Source of the DNA: Flammeovirgaceae bacterium
GTDB taxonomy: Bacteria > Bacteroidota > Bacteroidia > Cytophagales > Cyclobacteriaceae
NCBI GenBank assembly: GCA_015180985.1
Contig: CP054185.1
Span: forward strand, 558,001-622,000
DNA: 64,000 nucleotides
Direction: 5' to 3'
Below, one piece after another: positions 57,233 through 64,000 of this stretch (positions are counted from its first letter, which is position 1; every line of letters starts with the position of its first letter). Under the pieces are notes generated by a model that was given only the letters and a program-made list of their open reading frames with translations, was not told the origin of the DNA and ran no database searches. The translations under genes were made by a program, and so were the position numbers.

Positions 57233-57841
57233 CTAACAAAGCTCTCTTAATCCACACTTACTAACGAATCCGGACACGGTAAGTCTGTGTACACCTAAGA
57301 TTCTTCCAATGGCACTGTAGGATACTTTCTTATCCAGCAATTCTTTGATCTTCCTTTCTTGCCCTGTCAATTTTGTCTTGGCTGACTTTCTTCCGACAGG
57401 TCGGCCTAAAATGACGCCTTCAGCTTTTTTTCTGGCTAATGCCTCTTTGGTTCGTTGAGAAATTAGGTTGCGCTCTATTTCAGCAGAAAGACCAAACGCA
57501 AAGGCAAGAACTTTAGAGTTGATGTCGCTTCCTAAACGATAATTGTCCTTAATAGTCCAAACTTGTATCTCTCGATTCATGCACTCGTTTAGAATAGCCA
57601 TTATCATTAGCAAATTCCTTCCAAGTCTGGACAACTCAGAGCAAATTAGGACATCATCCTTTTTCATTCGTTTTAGGAGTTTGCCAATTTTTCGCTCGTT
57701 GATATTCTTTGCGCCAGAGATAGTTTCTTCAATCCATTTATCGACAACCAAGACATTTTTTTCACAGAATTGATTGACTTCGTAGCGTTGGTTTTCAACA
57801 GACTGTTTGTCGGTGCTTACACGAATGTAGCCGTAGATCAT
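57233..57841 (-). CDS. Serine recombinase/DNA invertase (Hin/Pin-like)
   Basis: A 202-residue small serine recombinase. The catalytic serine is S9 in YIRVSTDKQS, the arginine motif is SRLGRN, and the long helix E region is LAFAFGLSAEIERNLISQRTKEALARKK. The C-terminal helix-turn-helix binds the crossover site (VSYSAIGRILGVHRLTVSGFV). Size and layout match DNA invertases rather than large transposon integrases. It lies about 95 nt from an inverted repeat that also occurs inside the neighbouring restriction gene, so it is the likely enzyme flipping that segment. Confidence 0.92.
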   Translation of the reverse strand: MIYGYIRVSTDKQSVENQRYEVNQFCEKNVLVVDKWIEETISGAKNINERKIGKLLKRMKKDDVLICSELSRLGRNLLMIMAILNECMNREIQVWTIKDNYRLGSDINSKVLAFAFGLSAEIERNLISQRTKEALARKKAEGVILGRPVGRKSAKTKLTGQERKIKELLDKKVSYSAIGRILGVHRLTVSGFVSKCGLRELC

Positions 57842-57851
57842 AGGGGTTCAA

Positions 57852-57889
57852 GGTTTAAATTAATTAATGAGAAGTGTATAATTTAAACC
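57852..57889. promoter_or_regulatory. Perfect 11-bp inverted repeat at the recombinase promoter
   Basis: GGTTTAAATTA (57852-57862) and TAATTTAAACC (57879-57889) form a perfect dyad with a 16-nt spacer, starting 11 nt before the recombinase start codon. It may be an operator for autoregulation, an invertase enhancer-like site or a promoter element. Confidence 0.6.
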
Positions 57890-57932
57890 AAAACTGTCTA
57901 TAGAAAATATAGCCATTTTTTTATGCACTTAA

Positions 57933-58937
57933 ACTAGCGTTTTTATTAGACAACATGGCGGTTTTACCACCTTCTCTACCAGCCAAAGCTGGGCAATCTT
58001 ATCAAGCATTGAGCAACGAATTAAGGACAAAATTGAGTTGGCAGGCGTGCCGCTAAGGGATTGGGATATTCAAATATTTCGAGGTGTATTAACTGGCTAC
58101 AATGATGCATTTGTCATCAATCGGGAAAAAAAGGAAGAGCTAATCAAGGCAGATCCAAAATCAGCCGAAATTATACGACCGATTCTTAGAGGACGAGACA
58201 TTGCTCGGTACAAATACGAGTTTGCAGAATGTTACCTGATCGCGTTGTTTCCAGCAAAAGAATATAAAATAGATGATTATCCTGCCGTCAAGGATCATCT
58301 CCTCTCATTTGGGAAGGATTTGCTAATTAAGAATGGATTTTCCTGGGTAGCAGATAATTATCTCGAAGAATGGTGCCTAAGGCGTTTAGAGCAAACTGGG
58401 AAAAATATAGTTATCAATGGTGAAAGAATTAGCTTCAAAAAAAATGAAAAGGCCAGAAAAGCAAGCACTAATAAGTGGTATGAGACGCAGGATAGCATAA
58501 GTTATTGGGACGATTTTTCTAAACAGAAAATCATTTGGATTGAGTTAACTGATCACGCAAATTTTTGTCTGGATACCGAAGGCTATTACTTAAACAACAC
58601 GGTTTTCTTTCTGATTGGCGATAGACTTCCATACATTCTCTCTTTCCTTAATTCCAAACTGTGCGAATGGTACTTCGGAAAAATAGCAGCAACATCTGGA
58701 GTAGGGACAAGGAGATGGATCAAGCAGTACATAGAACAAATTTGTATCCCCCTTTCGCCTTCAAGCCACAATGAAATAGCATTAGGACAATTGGTAGTGG
58801 AGATCCAAAAACGTAAAAAGCAGAGATTGGATACCTCTGATCTTGAGAATCAGGTTGATGAGATAATCTTTTCGCTCTTTGAACTGTCATCAGACGAGAT
58901 CAACTTCATTAGTCACTTCGATTTGGCGGAAGCCTGA
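57933..58937 (+). pseudogene. Silent target-recognition cassette of the type IIG enzyme
   Basis: Open reading from 57933 without a start codon of its own at the homologous point; the first ATG-like start (58038) lies well inside. The product begins SVFIRQHG and continues SWAILSSIEQRIKDKIELAGVPLRDW, parallel to the active gene (SVFIRQHG, TWAILSPIEQRIKRKIELTGTPLKEW). It then shares SAEIIRPILRGRDI but differs through most of the ~240-residue recognition domain. It points toward the active gene and overlaps its end by 48 nt. It becomes expressed only if inverted and joined to the methylase half. Confidence 0.9.
57936..57958 (+). repeat. Inversion repeat IR-1 of the specificity switch
   Basis: A 23-bp sequence, AGCGTTTTTATT followed by AGACAACATGG, exactly inverted at 59776-59798. 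In the silent cassette it is read in frame as SVFIRQHG, the same residues and frame as in the active gene. Half-site symmetry (GTTnT...AnAAC) is compatible with a serine-invertase crossover site. Confidence 0.9.
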
Positions 58938-59775
58938 AAGGAGATATTCAATTTCGTCATCTGACAATTTGTAGAGTTCAAAAATCATTTGATCGAGCCG
59001 GTTTTCAAGTTCGTCCGTTTGTAAATTAGACTTTTTAGCCTCAAGAATTTGAAGGGCTAAGTCCGCAAAAGGTTTCTGTTTCACTTGGTCAATAACTGGA
59101 ACGGGCAATTTTTCTATGAACATCGGCTTGTATTCAAAGTAGCCTCCATTTCTAATAACTCCCAAATTTCTCACGTAATAATCACCTAGTGTTGAATTCA
59201 AGACGGCTAGTAGATATGGATTACCAGGCACTATCATAGGCGATGGAGCATTAACAAACATGCCTTCCTCTGCTAGGGTGTAAGACGCTCGAAGATTCAA
59301 ATTCCCCCAAACAATTTTCTGTTTAGAAAAATCGTCCATATAAGCACAGTTCCTCAAATTGTACGGAGTGTCACCCTTGTCTGCACGTTTTTCAAGCTCG
59401 GTATAGTACTTATCCAGGTGCTTTTTAATGGCAGGATAATCCTCTATCTGAATGGGTTTTAAACCCTTTTCCTTGATACCATTGTGTGTGTTGATCAACC
59501 ACAGATCCGCAAAGCTATTGGCGTATCTCTTTATGTCCCTGCCACGCAAAATCGGTCGTATAATTTCGGCTGATTTTGGATCAAGTTTTATCAATTCAGC
59601 TCGCTCTTTTCCAGTAATTATGAAGGCATCATTGAAACCTGTTTTGATCCCATAATTGATGGCTATTTCCCATTCTTTGAGTGGTGTTCCAGTCAATTCT
59701 ATCTTCCGCTTGATTCGTTGCTCAATTGGAGACAATATGGCCCAAGTATCCTTCGTATGAAATTCACTGGCTACC

Positions 59776-59798
59776 CCATGTTGTCTAATAAAAACGCT
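59776..59798 (-). repeat. Inversion repeat IR-2 of the specificity switch
   Basis: Exact reverse complement of 57936-57958, located inside the active gene and coding SVFIRQHG on the minus strand. Recombination with IR-1 would flip 1863 bp and swap the recognition domain in frame. Confidence 0.9.
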
Positions 59799-60192
59799 CA
59801 AATTATTTAACACCTTCTCAGTGACCGTACACGCAAATGTTTTGCCCTTGTTGGCGCCCTTTGTAAAGAGTAAAATATTCGTTACGACCGTTGCAGATTC
59901 GAAGATTTTTTGTTCTGGAAAATCAATGAGCAAAGTCGGGTTTGCATTGTTTGCAAGAAATCTCCGCGTGCCCTCTCCATACCCGGCTCTCATCCACTTA
60001 TTCGATGTGATGTAGCAGAGATTTCCGTTAGGTTTTAGAAGTTGCCATCCTCTTTCATAGAATAGTGAATAGATGTCACCCATTCTATCGAATGTCTGAT
60101 AATTAGCATTCTCATATAGATCAGCTAAATCACCACCGTCTTTTTGCAATTGGATATATGGCGGATTACCGATGACAATATCGAATCCTCCG

Positions 60193-60200
60193 TTTTCAAA
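60193..60200. repeat. Target-site duplication, left copy
   Basis: TTTTCAAA, repeated at 61602-61609. Removing the IS and one copy restores DIFENGGFDIVIGNPPY in frame. Confidence 0.92.
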
Positions 60201-60228
60201 GGTAACGACTAAGCAACTGTGTAAAGGC

Positions 60229-60283
60229 CCGATTCGGCCTTGCTGAAAGGGGATGTGGAATGTACCACTTTCAGCCGAATCGG
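60229..60283 (+). promoter_or_regulatory. Hairpin in the IS leader before the transposase
   Basis: CCGATTCG-GC...GCTGAAAG (60229-60249) pairs with CTTTCAGC-CGAATCGG (60268-60283), giving a long interrupted stem 36 nt before the transposase start. It could stop outside transcripts from expressing the transposase or hide its start. Confidence 0.6.
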
Positions 60284-60318
60284 TTGCATTTAAAGACTTA
60301 ACTTTAAACACAGTTACC

Positions 60319-61542
60319 ATGGAAAATCAAGAACAACACCCACTACTCAAAGAGATGCTCACCCCTGAGTTTCTCAAGCAATTTAAGAATTCGAAAGACC
60401 TCAACAGCTTTATCGATGAACTTTTCAAAAAGGGCATGGAGCAAATGCTGGAAGGTGAACTCGATGGCCATTTGGGCTATGCCAAACATTCACCAGAAGG
60501 GATTAACTCCGGGAACTCACGGAACGGAAAAACCCGTAAGACCATCAAGACCACGCGAGGTGAACTACAGATAGAAGTACCTCGGGATCGGAACAGCACG
60601 TTTGAGCCCGTCCTGGTTCCCAAGCGCAGCCGGTTCGTAGAAGGCATCGAAGAAATTATCATCTCCTTATATGCCCGGGGTATGAGCGTACGCGACATTG
60701 AAATACAAATCCGGGAAATCTATGGTGTGAATGTTTCGGATGCCACTATTTCCAACGTTACCTCGCGGGTACATACGTTGGTAACGGAGTGGCAAAGCAG
60801 GCCTCTTTCATCGGTGTACTTTGTGGTGTGGATGGATGGGATCGTATTCAAAGTCCGGCAGAATGGGAAGGTGATCAACAAAACCATTTACCTGGCCGTA
60901 GGCCTTAATGCTCAGGGGTTTAAGGAAGTATTGGGCATGTGGCTGGGTGAAAGCGAAAGTGCTTCATTCTGGATAAGTGTACTTACTGATTTAAAAAGCC
61001 GTGGCGTGGAAGATATTCTCATCACCAGCACCGATAATCTGAAGGGCTTCACCGATGCAATCACCAGCGTGTTTACCCAATCGGTAACCCAGATTTGTGT
61101 AGTTCATCAGATCAGAAATGCGCTTCGCTACGTTGTCTGGAAAGACAAGAAACAATTTGTAGCCGATTTGAAGACTGTTTACGGAGCACCAAACAAAGAG
61201 CTGGCTGCTCAAGCCTTAGAGCAGCTTGAAGTAACATGGGGCAAAAAATATCCGCATGCTATCAAGTCGTGGAAAACGAATTGGGATAACCTCACGCACT
61301 TCTTCGATTATCCGATCGAAATCCGAACGCTGATCTATACCACGAACATTATCGAAAATCTCAACGGAAAAATCCGCAAGTATACCAACAACAAACTTTC
61401 GTTCCCTGACGACCAGGCGGTGGTGAAAGCGGTGTACCTGGCTTTACGGGAGATCACCAAAAAATGGACCTTGCCCGTGAGAAACTGGCCACTAATCGTA
61501 AATCAATTTTTAACTATCTTCGAAGGCAGATGCAAAATATAA
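60319..61542 (+). CDS. IS256-family (Mutator-type) transposase
   Basis: A 407-residue DDE transposase from ATG 60319 (MENQEQHPLL). The family N-terminus is FIDELFKKGMEQMLEGELDGHLGYAKH with GNSRNGKTRKTIKTTRGELQIEVPRDRN. The catalytic aspartates lie in FVVWMDGIVFKV and TSTDNLKGF, and the C-terminal motif IYTTNIIENLNGKIRKYT carries the glutamate. Length is normal and the frame is intact, so the element may still be active. Confidence 0.96.
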   Translation: MENQEQHPLLKEMLTPEFLKQFKNSKDLNSFIDELFKKGMEQMLEGELDGHLGYAKHSPEGINSGNSRNGKTRKTIKTTRGELQIEVPRDRNSTFEPVLVPKRSRFVEGIEEIIISLYARGMSVRDIEIQIREIYGVNVSDATISNVTSRVHTLVTEWQSRPLSSVYFVVWMDGIVFKVRQNGKVINKTIYLAVGLNAQGFKEVLGMWLGESESASFWISVLTDLKSRGVEDILITSTDNLKGFTDAITSVFTQSVTQICVVHQIRNALRYVVWKDKKQFVADLKTVYGAPNKELAAQALEQLEVTWGKKYPHAIKSWKTNWDNLTHFFDYPIEIRTLIYTTNIIENLNGKIRKYTNNKLSFPDDQAVVKAVYLALREITKKWTLPVRNWPLIVNQFLTIFEGRCKI

Positions 61543-61585
61543 AACCTTTACGCAGTTGCTTAGTCGTTACCCAGCACTTACACAC

Positions 61586-63685
61586 TTAATTAGGCAGTGT
61601 CTTTTCAAAAATGTCAGAGAACCATAAGTGCCAAAGAAAGTACGGATATATTCTATTTTTCTGAATTTGCTTCAAGTCTTTCTCGATTCCTTTCAATCGC
61701 TCTTGTTCTTTAAGAATCCGATCCAAAATATTACGAAGTTTCTTCAGACTGTCTTCTTTCTTCTTCTTATCAGCATTCGTCTTTGGGGTTTGTCTATTTG
61801 CCGTGGCCAGCTTTAGCTCGATGTCATTGAGTGCATCATTATTCCGTCTGACTTTGTCTTGAATCTGCCCTTTGATGAACTTACTGACGATGTCATCTAT
61901 GCTATGTTGTAATTCTTTCTTTACTTCGCTATTGTCGGCTGCGAAATACTTTTTTACCAACGACTTAAGATGATCAATGTCCTCCCTACTAAATTTATTT
62001 TCATCCCTGAAGAGCTTTGTCTCTTCTTCAACTCTAACGCACAAATCCAAGTCCTCATAAGATTCTAATAAGCTATCGCCTTGCATGATTTTATAATCGA
62101 GGTTCGGCAATGGTCTTGGCTTATCCTCATCGACAACAAGGCTCAACCAAAATCTTAATCGTGCAATATCCACCGCACCCTTTTCAACGTCCACTCCATA
62201 AATAGAACCTTGGATGATTTTCTCCTTTGCACTTGCTGGATTCCAGCTTGAATTACTTCCATAGGCTATTACCTCTTTGATAGAGAAAATTTCCAGAAGA
62301 AGTCCCATTGGAAATGCGCCTGAACCAATTGCCGGGTCGCAAATTTTGACTCTGTCCAGGATACTTGCAACTTGAATTAATACGGCTGCTTCGATTTTAT
62401 CTACTTCCTTATATCGAACTAACCTTTCGACAGTGTCTCTTTTAAGTCCAGATTCTGTCACTATGTATTCCATCAAACTTTCTTGGCACATATAGTGAAC
62501 GATCTCCTTTGGAGTGTAGAAAGTACCCCGATCTTTGTTGTCTTCAAGGAGGTTTTCAAAAATATGTCCTAACATCTCAGGGTCAACTGCAATGGTGTGA
62601 TCGTCTGGACTATCTTCGTGAACTGTGAAATTAAATGCTTGTAAAAAGTCAAGAAATCCCCGTTGCTTTGGATCTTCATTGCTGTCCGGATTGTGAAAGA
62701 GTTTTGGATCAAAAGTGAGCACCTTTTGATCAATATCTTCCTTGTCAAAAAGGCCGCCATTCAGAAAAGGAATTTTCACCTTTTTCTTATCTGGCAATGC
62801 AAAGTCATCATTCGGTCTTCCCTTGTGATTATTTAATGTGTCGAAAAACAAAACTTTAAGCCATCTTTCGTAAAAGGTTTCATTTGCTCCGCTTGTTAAA
62901 TATAGATTCATTAAGAATTCAGGGTCTCCATCCTTATAGTCGACTGTGCTGGCTCCCAACCAACCCTTCTTTTGAACGAAGGAGAGAAAAACTAATCGCC
63001 CAAGAAGTTTCTTAACGAAGTCTCGAATAAGCTTTTCATTTCCATTAAATGCCGACTTCTTACAGTTTGATTGGTCTAAATATTTGAGGAACTTCTCATA
63101 GTGTAACTTGTATTCATCAAAGAATGCTTTGCTAAGTCTCTCGACTGAAAAGGCCTTTGTAAGAGCTTTTAGATCAATTGTTTTTTCAATTGATAGAGAT
63201 TCAAACCTCTCTGCTGCTGTCTTGCAACTTTCTCCAGGGCCCAATAAGAACGTATATCGTTTTGCGTTGGTCGATTTTTCTTTGATGCCGTCAGAGGTAA
63301 GCTCGCTATCTTTGGCTACCAATGTCAATCTCCAAATCTTCTTATTATCAGGCGAAACAAAACTGACCAAAGCAGCCTGTCCGGAAATTAGAAGTCTTCT
63401 TGCGTACTGTTGAATGGCTACCTTACTCTGTTCAATTCGGACTTTCGATTGAAGTGCAATTTCATAACAGGTTACTTCCGTTCCATCCTCCAGCGTTATT
63501 GCCCCATAGACTGAGATAGTATTTATTACCTTTTTCTCGGACGCAGTTGGCTGTATAGATGCTGGAGCTGGTGATTGCAGAAGTTTAAAATTGCTATTAA
63601 ATATTTGGCTCAAAACATCCTTTGAAAACAACAACCTATCATAAGGTCTTTGCAGTGATTGCTGAAGTTGTATTCTACTTGCCAT
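61586..63685 (-). pseudogene. Type IIG restriction-modification enzyme, N-terminal part (cut off by IS)
   Basis: The first ~694 native codons of an Eco57I-like enzyme, then TLPN and a stop supplied by the IS. It has the N-terminal region (QRPYDRLLFSKDVLSQIF), the helical YTPKEIVHYM segment, methylase motif I DPAIGSGAFPMGLL, and YGVDVEKGAVDIARLRFWLSLV. A charged coiled linker near the end (LKSLVKKYFAADN... to KDLKQIQKN) leads to WFSDIFE, where the IS sits. Motif IV (NPPY) and the recognition domain are on the other side, so this half alone cannot methylate. Confidence 0.92.
61602..61609. repeat. Target-site duplication, right copy
   Basis: TTTTCAAA, equal to 60193-60200. Confidence 0.92.
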
Positions 63686-63688
63686 ATC

Positions 63689-64000
63689 TTAAGAAAAGCT
63701 TTGGGTAAGGACAATTTTTGGATTTATTATACCTCTTGGCTTAGGTTCCTGTATTGGTTGCTCAGTAACTCTAGCTGACAAATCGTAGCGGTCAAGAACT
63801 TGCGTGAACAACAATTCAATAAAAGTTTCTGGAGTGCGCATTACTCTTTCATTATTTGTAAAAAAGTCGTTTATCTCCTTGGGAAATCCTTTCGAAGCAA
63901 ATGTTCCTTGCTTGATCAGTTCCAATGTCCTTAGAAGTACTTTTCTCTTTTGTTCCGTTGGGGCAATCTTGACAATTGCATTTATATTGGTGATTGCCTT
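63689..64000 (-). CDS. C-terminal part of an unidentified protein (continues beyond window)
   Basis: The frame is open to the right edge and ends at 63689, 3 nt before the restriction gene starts, so the two are probably one operon. About 104 residues are visible (NAIVKIAPTEQKRKVLLRT, then IKQGTFASKGFPKEINDFF and RVMRTPETFIELLFTQVL, ending in IINPKIVLTQSFS). No motif is recognisable. It may be a partner subunit or helicase of the restriction system, but the visible tail does not show this. Confidence 0.65.
   Translation of the reverse strand, partial: KAITNINAIVKIAPTEQKRKVLLRTLELIKQGTFASKGFPKEINDFFTNNERVMRTPETFIELLFTQVLDRYDLSARVTEQPIQEPKPRGIINPKIVLTQSFS

Follow-up and report, generated by a model that had tools for sequence, protein, structure and literature searches.

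A putative inversion switch that would exchange the recognition half of an Eco57I-like DNA methyltransferase in a Flammeovirgaceae bacterium

In the inverting hsdS systems, as set out in parts of two papers (PMC7394358, PMC3090145), inverted repeats lie within coding sequence, copies of recognition domains stand beside a recombinase gene, and the specificity of the enzyme is swapped. The locus analyzed here lies in a 64,000-nucleotide stretch of the genome of a Flammeovirgaceae bacterium (contig CP054185.1, positions 558,001 to 622,000; hereafter the window), where a serine recombinase gene adjoins a segment bounded by short inverted repeats, one of them inside the gene of a predicted methyltransferase. 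Like SpnD39III of Streptococcus pneumoniae and the hsdS shufflon of Bacteroides fragilis, as portrayed in the same parts of those papers, it combines inverted repeats in coding sequence, copies of a recognition domain and a recombinase in the locus. In those hsdS systems, however, a separate S subunit is switched, and in B. fragilis the adjacent recombinase is a tyrosine integrase, whereas in the present locus a serine invertase stands beside a methyltransferase that has the recognition domain fused to it. Type I specificity inversion is well described with its shuffled S subunit; here it is the methyltransferase protein's own recognition half that would be exchanged. Inversion-driven specificity switching is thus an already known kind, of which a recognition half fused to the methyltransferase and served by an Mpi-type serine invertase is a variant.

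The Mpi family of serine invertases is known for capsule promoters. The recombinase of the window scores 339.7 bits against NCBIfam NF009949 ('master DNA invertase Mpi family'; cut-off 272), the same equivalog as the master invertase Mpi of B. fragilis, and it is the only match to this model in the whole genome. Unlike Mpi of B. fragilis, it is accompanied by two sites in the genome, both at this one locus, and a genome-wide, Mpi-like master action at many sites was rejected, since only these two sites were found with up to three mismatches. Milman and colleagues reportedly described gene-altering programmed inversions, those of pglX in BREX among them, in Nucleic Acids Research in 2023 (gkac1166) and named type II restriction-modification systems as a new target family. 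Literature searches, which reached passages of some papers only, returned no paper that we recognized as describing the present switch family, and we do not claim that it is absent from print.

The features of the switch are given below; SSA6 and UWPOB_CYTO1 are two related genomes that carry the locus.

57233-57841, minus strand: Mpi-family serine recombinase (DNA invertase), 202 aa (Pfam Resolvase, 6.7e-34; NCBIfam NF009949)
57936-57958, plus strand: recombination site on the cassette side, 23 bp (repeat search; inversion breakpoint against SSA6)
59776-59798, minus strand: recombination site on the gene side, inverted copy of the 23 bp, read as SVFIRQHG (repeat search; breakpoint against SSA6)
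57936-59798, no strand: invertible segment, 1863 bp (turned round in SSA6 and in UWPOB_CYTO1)
57936-58937, plus strand: alternative recognition-domain cassette, 333 codons in frame from the site (TaqI_C, 2.1e-15; 99% identity to the gene-side domain of SSA6)
58890-59798, minus strand: recognition domain now joined to the methyltransferase part, 302 codons (TaqI_C, 3.2e-9; 99% identity to the cassette-side domain of SSA6)

The sequence-only reading of this DNA had named a serine recombinase gene, an exact inverted 23-bp repeat and two tail-to-tail recognition domains with both repeats read as SVFIRQHG in one frame, and all three were borne out. The repeat is perfect, and just two copies were found in the single-contig genome of 3,379,405 bases when up to three mismatches were allowed, while the reversed control sequence gave none. 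Both copies translate as S-V-F-I-R-Q-H-G in a common frame, whose stop comes 302 codons from the site on the gene side and 333 codons from it on the cassette side; in its present orientation, the cassette has a single open codon upstream of the site. The two frames run tail to tail and overlap at 58890-58937. Before the site, the uninterrupted methyltransferase gene would have 692 + 134 codons, so the predicted sizes of 1128 and 1159 residues for the two forms hold as arithmetic (adding 302 or 333), although only for a gene without the insertion described below.

Homology between the two arms of the segment extends for about 250 bp (160 of 249 columns identical, 64%) and ends at the outer edge of the 23-bp repeat, outside which 16 of 60 positions are identical. 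When the match and mismatch columns of the 249-column block were permuted 20,000 times, a run of at least 23 matches occurred in 31 permutations, and none had such a run at the outer edge, so the repeat is more than a chance match. Longer inverted repeats also lie inside the segment, one of 33 bp (58152-58184/59550-59582) and one of 24 bp (58508-58531/59314-59337). Both are excluded as the place of crossover because the breakpoints between SSA6 and the window fall at the 23-bp sites; a crossover at the 33-bp repeat in particular was rejected, as the DNA between the 23-bp site and the 33-bp repeat travels with the segment in SSA6.

The sequence-only reading had proposed to look among relatives for the alternative orientation, the lack of which would have refuted it; two relatives have this orientation. 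SSA6 (locus L078, CP058703.1) is a metagenome-assembled genome of a Cyclobacteriaceae isolate whose flanks are about 99.7% identical to those of the window, the matched stretch being 9.2 kb long on one side and, past an insertion sequence (IS) element, 11.4 kb long on the other. Its segment matches that of the window in 1856 of 1864 columns when turned round and in 1080 of 2070 when left unturned, and the inversion runs exactly from repeat to repeat, with the 23-bp sites as breakpoints. At the protein level, the gene-side domain of the window matches the cassette-side domain of SSA6 at 299 of 302 residues, the cassette-side domain of the window matches the gene-side domain of SSA6 at 330 of 333, and domains in the same place share 46%. 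The opposite orientation in a genome this close implies recent flipping.

The second genome, UWPOB_CYTO1 (locus L079, from the same record as G279/L047), is more distant and has an intact frame of 1125 aa, an open cassette, a recombinase 94% identical to that of the window and an N-terminal methyltransferase part 85% identical. It stands in the SSA6 orientation, with 92% identity from the window's gene side to its cassette and 81% from the window's cassette to its gene side. Its two sites are identical to each other and both differ from the window's copies at the same two bases, indicating that the repeat pair evolves in concert. Between the window and UWPOB_CYTO1, both recognition domains are under purifying selection, with ratios of nonsynonymous to synonymous divergence (dN/dS) of 0.057 and 0.104 for the two domains at high dS (0.77 and 1.23), which is not what a silent, never-expressed copy predicts.

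What the sequences show directly is the architecture, the inversion exactly between the sites in close relatives, the shared frame, and that both domains and the site are conserved. The explanation that we favor, and hold to be very probable, is a two-state, site-specific inversion switch that exchanges the recognition half of the methyltransferase. The Mpi-family serine invertase encoded at 57233-57841 would, as a dedicated recombinase, act on the two 23-bp sites, one lying inside the methyltransferase gene between its catalytic and recognition domains and the other just past the start-less cassette. Each flip would then trade, in frame, the whole C-terminal recognition half, of 302 against 333 residues. 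The Eco57I-like N6-adenine methyltransferase, together with a PLD-SNF2 helicase encoded upstream, would as a result have both modification and restriction moved to another DNA motif. The agency of this recombinase, the change of motif with the flip and the part taken by the helicase in restriction are inferences.

In the window itself, the methyltransferase gene is interrupted, and its remaining parts and the interrupting element are as follows.

59799-60200, minus strand: methyltransferase domain part with the NPPY motif, 134 codons, between the insertion and the switch (Eco57I, 5.6e-32; open reading frame 58893-60320)
60193-60200, no strand: 8-bp target duplication TTTTCAAA, with the second copy at 61602-61609 (single copy in SSA6)
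60201-61601, plus strand: IS256-family insertion sequence, 1401 bp, splitting the methyltransferase gene (Transposase_mut, 1e-110; NF033543; absent from SSA6)
60253-61542: transposase of the IS256-family element (Transposase_mut, NF033543)
61610-63685, minus strand: N-terminal methyltransferase part, 692 codons (open reading frame as it stands, 61586-63685; PADLOC REase_MTase_IIG, 4.8e-70; 85% identity to UWPOB_CYTO1)

The gene had been called active in the sequence-only reading, which does not hold for this genome, where the IS256-family element splits it at 60201-61601. In SSA6 the insertion site is empty and the 8 bases TTTTCAAA stand there once. The insertion is probably recent, because the 17 full or nearly full copies of the element in the genome, that of the window included, are all 99 or 100% identical. 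Because the insertion precedes the switch and sits in the part common to both forms, neither form would be full-length in this assembly, and the switch is probably mute in this isolate. The element has apparently expanded recently in this 3.38-Mb genome, and further genes may be disrupted by it.

The site is conserved at the DNA level and accompanies the recombinase in several genera; a repeat not conserved in this way would have refuted the sequence-only reading. In class-1 loci, the gene-side site commonly reads AGCG(T/A)TT(T/A)T(N)TTAG(A/G/T)CA and lies in the same place. Among 70 homologues for which no recombinase was seen, 64 lack the site and six carry it (L052, L115, L127, L132, L135 and L147); the contigs of the last five end in or just after the gene, and their recombinase may be out of sight. 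The site is clear in 10 of the 17 rows marked as switch loci, counting L126, which has no recombinase within its contig. Both sites were available for a test of frame in nine of ten loci, and the cassette is open in the frame of the gene for 292-333 codons in all nine. A wider scan of 39 distinct loci, which itself selects for frame, gave 20 with both sides open for at least 200 codons. In L111/L169 and in L183, an inverted repeat of 20 and 26 bp, respectively, lies deeper in the recognition domain (L111:13142-13161/13880-13899, L183:7122-7147/7876-7901), with one frame open on both sides, so that about 122-124 C-terminal residues would swap. These repeats hold TTTTATT like many class-1 sites, in another frame; the likeness is no more than suggestive, because the conserved peptide FYS could yield the same letters. 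As a separate observation, L174 has very long inverted repeats, with adjoining perfect stretches of 96 bp (6025-6120/7767-7862) and 111 bp (6122-6232/7655-7765), and its recombinase runs in the opposite direction.

The arrangement was then followed from both of its genes. Relatives of the methyltransferase were taken from one-genome-per-species data as 79 loci (the best 80 of 136 places), ten of which have a recombinase 85-99% identical to that of the window beside an inverted cassette: SSA6, UWPOB_CYTO1, Pedobacter, Mucilaginibacter, Sphingobacterium and five Chryseobacterium. L126, from Epilithonimonas, has the cassette, and its contig stops before any recombinase. Searches with the recombinase found relatives in 9 of 395 genomes of the phylum (E<=1e-40) and 11 of 395 of the class (E<=1e-60), with the window's genome counted in both, in 34 of 399 genomes of family f4 (E<=1e-75), and in 16 plasmid and 7 phage records (E<=1e-40). 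Merging identical recombinase sequences left 60 distinct loci with recombinase identities of 50-100%, a biased set, as ten loci had entered via the methyltransferase and only seven plasmid records were fetched. Of these 60 loci, 32 have the methyltransferase with an inverted cassette, 12 have a cassette or gene at a contig end (L227 among them being a full arrangement missed by the size rule, and L236 a gene without cassette) and 16 have neither. At recombinase identities of at least 80% (30 loci), 19 are full, seven are at contig ends and four have none: L184 and L217, whose contigs end at the site, L175, with a degenerate recombinase, and L226, which has no such gene nearby. Five of the 16 plasmid records with a related recombinase (H1, H4, H5, H7 and H12) showed no methyltransferase cassette within 6-7 kb.

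The ends of draft contigs are placed unevenly. Judged by eye, 13 of 42 loci have a contig end no more than 2 kb upstream of the recombinase, which is the cassette side in nearly all cases, and 0 of 42 have one that near on the other side. The contig of L217 breaks off exactly where the 17-bp core of the site is complete, and that of L184 three bases further on. Such one-sided ends are as expected if the sequenced samples held both orientations, and repeats elsewhere in the genome could also cause them. The draft contigs of L217, L184, L115, L127, L132, L135 and L147 break at the site or inside the switch gene, and such breaks might offer an inexpensive way to screen for live invertible loci. 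They are also a warning to annotators that such loci can be broken or shortened in draft genomes.

Two Lactococcus plasmids, NZ_CP016750.2 and NZ_PP589677.1, carry the helicase, the methyltransferase, an inverted cassette and the same recombinase accession, and their site, GAGCGATTATGTACGACA, resembles the Bacteroidota site. Their domains share 46% and 49% when compared place by place and 70% and 72% when each gene side is set against the other plasmid's cassette side, and a domain stretch of 496 bases is 99% identical crosswise. The sequences thus point to a second opposite-orientation pair, more diverged and less clean than SSA6 and the window. NZ_CP016750.2 (as pJM1D) is listed among Lactococcus plasmids with an apparently complete type II system (PMC6458302), and by word counts of its main text, that paper uses neither the word invertase nor the term phase variation. 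Another clean inversion pair was sought among the remaining loci and none was found, L237 and L238 for example having their domains in the same orientation.

Several observations weigh against the switch as we read it. The assignment of the flip to the adjacent recombinase rests on linkage. In 16 of the 60 recombinase loci, the fetched stretch contains no such methyltransferase, and L052 has a gene-side site and no recombinase in its fetched stretch. Among the 17 rows marked as switch loci, the site is lacking at its usual place in five (L111, L171, L172, L173 and L183) and is a variant in two (L109 and L174); in L109, L171, L172 and L173, the cassette is short and no outer repeat was found. 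L237 and L238 have their domains in the same orientation (gene to gene 88%, cassette to cassette 91%) and their site letters exchanged, which a simple flip does not account for. The Lactococcus pair is diverged, with flanks 92% identical, and the gene-side and cassette-side sites of NZ_PP589677.1 (L251) agree exactly over 12 bases only. In the window, the methyltransferase gene is broken by the IS256-family element, and in SSA6 the gene has an in-frame stop at codon 167 and 37 bases of the 23.5-kb locus are ambiguous. The ambiguous bases and the stop touch the coding status of SSA6, not its orientation.

Four other explanations were weighed. The inversion could be real and arise by general homologous recombination between the conserved arms instead of by the adjacent invertase, as the perfect 33-bp inverted repeat inside the segment and the arm homology over some 250 bp would allow. 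The breakpoints between SSA6 and the window nevertheless lie at the outer 23-bp site, outside the 33-bp repeat; UWPOB_CYTO1 keeps the 23-bp pair and not the 33-bp repeat, of which 15 bp are exact, with the inner 24-bp repeat kept too; and the site is retained with the recombinase in several genera, all of which makes this route improbable. That the cassette is the leftover of a partial duplication, and the switch a relic dead throughout the lineage, would fit with the IS insertion here, the in-frame stop in the SSA6 assembly and the decayed sites or short cassettes of some relatives. UWPOB_CYTO1, with its intact 1125-aa frame, open cassette and 94%-identical recombinase, argues against it, as does the recent flipping implied by a near-identical genome in the opposite orientation, and we consider a relic just as improbable as recombination between the arms.

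A flip might also be real and change nothing in specificity, acting as an on/off or neutral exchange because one of the domains has no activity or the two recognize a single motif. The interruption that the methyltransferase gene already shows in this genome would suit such a view; the two domains, on the other hand, are only 46% identical (gene side of the window against gene side of SSA6), each is under purifying selection (0.057 and 0.104), and the cassette is full-length and in frame in all nine loci with both sites. This remains an unlikely explanation, if the least unlikely of the four. Finally, the segment could stand the wrong way round in one assembly, and SSA6 is indeed metagenome-assembled and has ambiguous bases. 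The 23-bp repeats are short relative to sequencing reads, and the same kind of exchange recurs in a third genome, UWPOB_CYTO1, and in the Lactococcus plasmid pair, so that an assembly artefact is very hard to credit.

Returning to a two-state switch of the recognition half, we are evenly divided over a wider proposal built on it. Under this proposal, a dedicated Mpi-type invertase, a coding-sequence site kept almost letter for letter and an inverted recognition-domain cassette would form a compact, horizontally moving module, fitted in Bacteroidota and on Lactococcus plasmids to a family of helicase-linked, single-chain methyltransferases; with a single recognition domain directing modification as well as restriction, each flip would change the two together, and the cell would have to survive with its chromosome briefly unmodified for the new motif. 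If so, how does the cell avoid cutting its own DNA right after a flip? With the module present in Chryseobacterium, Pedobacter and Sphingobacterium and on dairy Lactococcus plasmids, workable hosts for this question should exist.

The label type IIG, given to the enzyme in the sequence-only reading, stands in part. In the intact relative UWPOB_CYTO1, an Eco57I methyltransferase and a TaqI_C recognition domain share one frame, and the best PADLOC families for this protein are REase_MTase_IIG (PDLC03596, PDLC03601, PDLC03612; 606 bits), so the label is fair by homology. As used by PADLOC, it denotes an enzyme with its own nuclease, whereas here a helicase gene precedes and a nuclease site was not found by Pfam, by residues or by fold: no nuclease family was detected in the intact relative in Pfam up to E 0.1, and a model of the N-terminal 180 aa (predicted local distance difference test, pLDDT, 86.3) had no PDB match at E<=0.001, its weak matches including some to Holliday-junction resolvases. 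In 24 aligned sequences, D67 and E75 are nearly invariant and no lysine of an E-x-K motif is conserved. The AlphaFold2 model of the whole intact relative (mean pLDDT 84.5, predicted template modeling score 0.78) matches the folds of CamA, M.BseCI, PglX/BrxX, MmeI and BpuSI, and places the site, at residue 827, in a predicted helix (823-833) between the Pfam methyltransferase domain (to 816) and the recognition domain (from 908).

Immediately upstream of the methyltransferase gene, at a distance of 3 bp, lies the helicase gene.

63689-64000, minus strand: 3' end of the PLD-SNF2 helicase gene, 1118 aa, which runs past the window end (L157:9690-13046; Helicase_C, SNF2, PLDc_2)

A homologue of this helicase occurs in 94 of 108 fetched homologue loci (three records counted twice), and its product may supply cutting or translocation. 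Five Chryseobacterium loci have no such helicase in the fetched stretch; the one scanned, L128, has a different N-terminus, with DUF7149 and DUF7814. An Eco57I-like methyltransferase with a recognition domain is also found in PglX/BrxX of BREX (bacteriophage exclusion) and in DrmMI of DISARM (defense island system associated with restriction-modification), and PglX/BrxX is among the fold matches. The locus differs from BREX-1 and DISARM in its scores, however: the intact relative reaches 91.9 bits and the window fragment 58.5 bits against the BREX-1 PglX model (cut-off 500), and the helicase reaches 145.2 bits against the DISARM DrmD model (cut-off 610), with PADLOC HKD+Snf2 outscoring DrmD. 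Membership of BREX or DISARM was rejected on these curated scores; the neighbors scanned for partner genes were the upstream helicase and a GmrSD-type protein only. The latter, a divergent, type IV restriction-like protein, is encoded beside the helicase and beyond the window (L157:13262-15730, genome 625261-627729). It is 99% identical in SSA6 and was not found in the fetched UWPOB_CYTO1 locus, indicating that the defense neighborhood varies between relatives.

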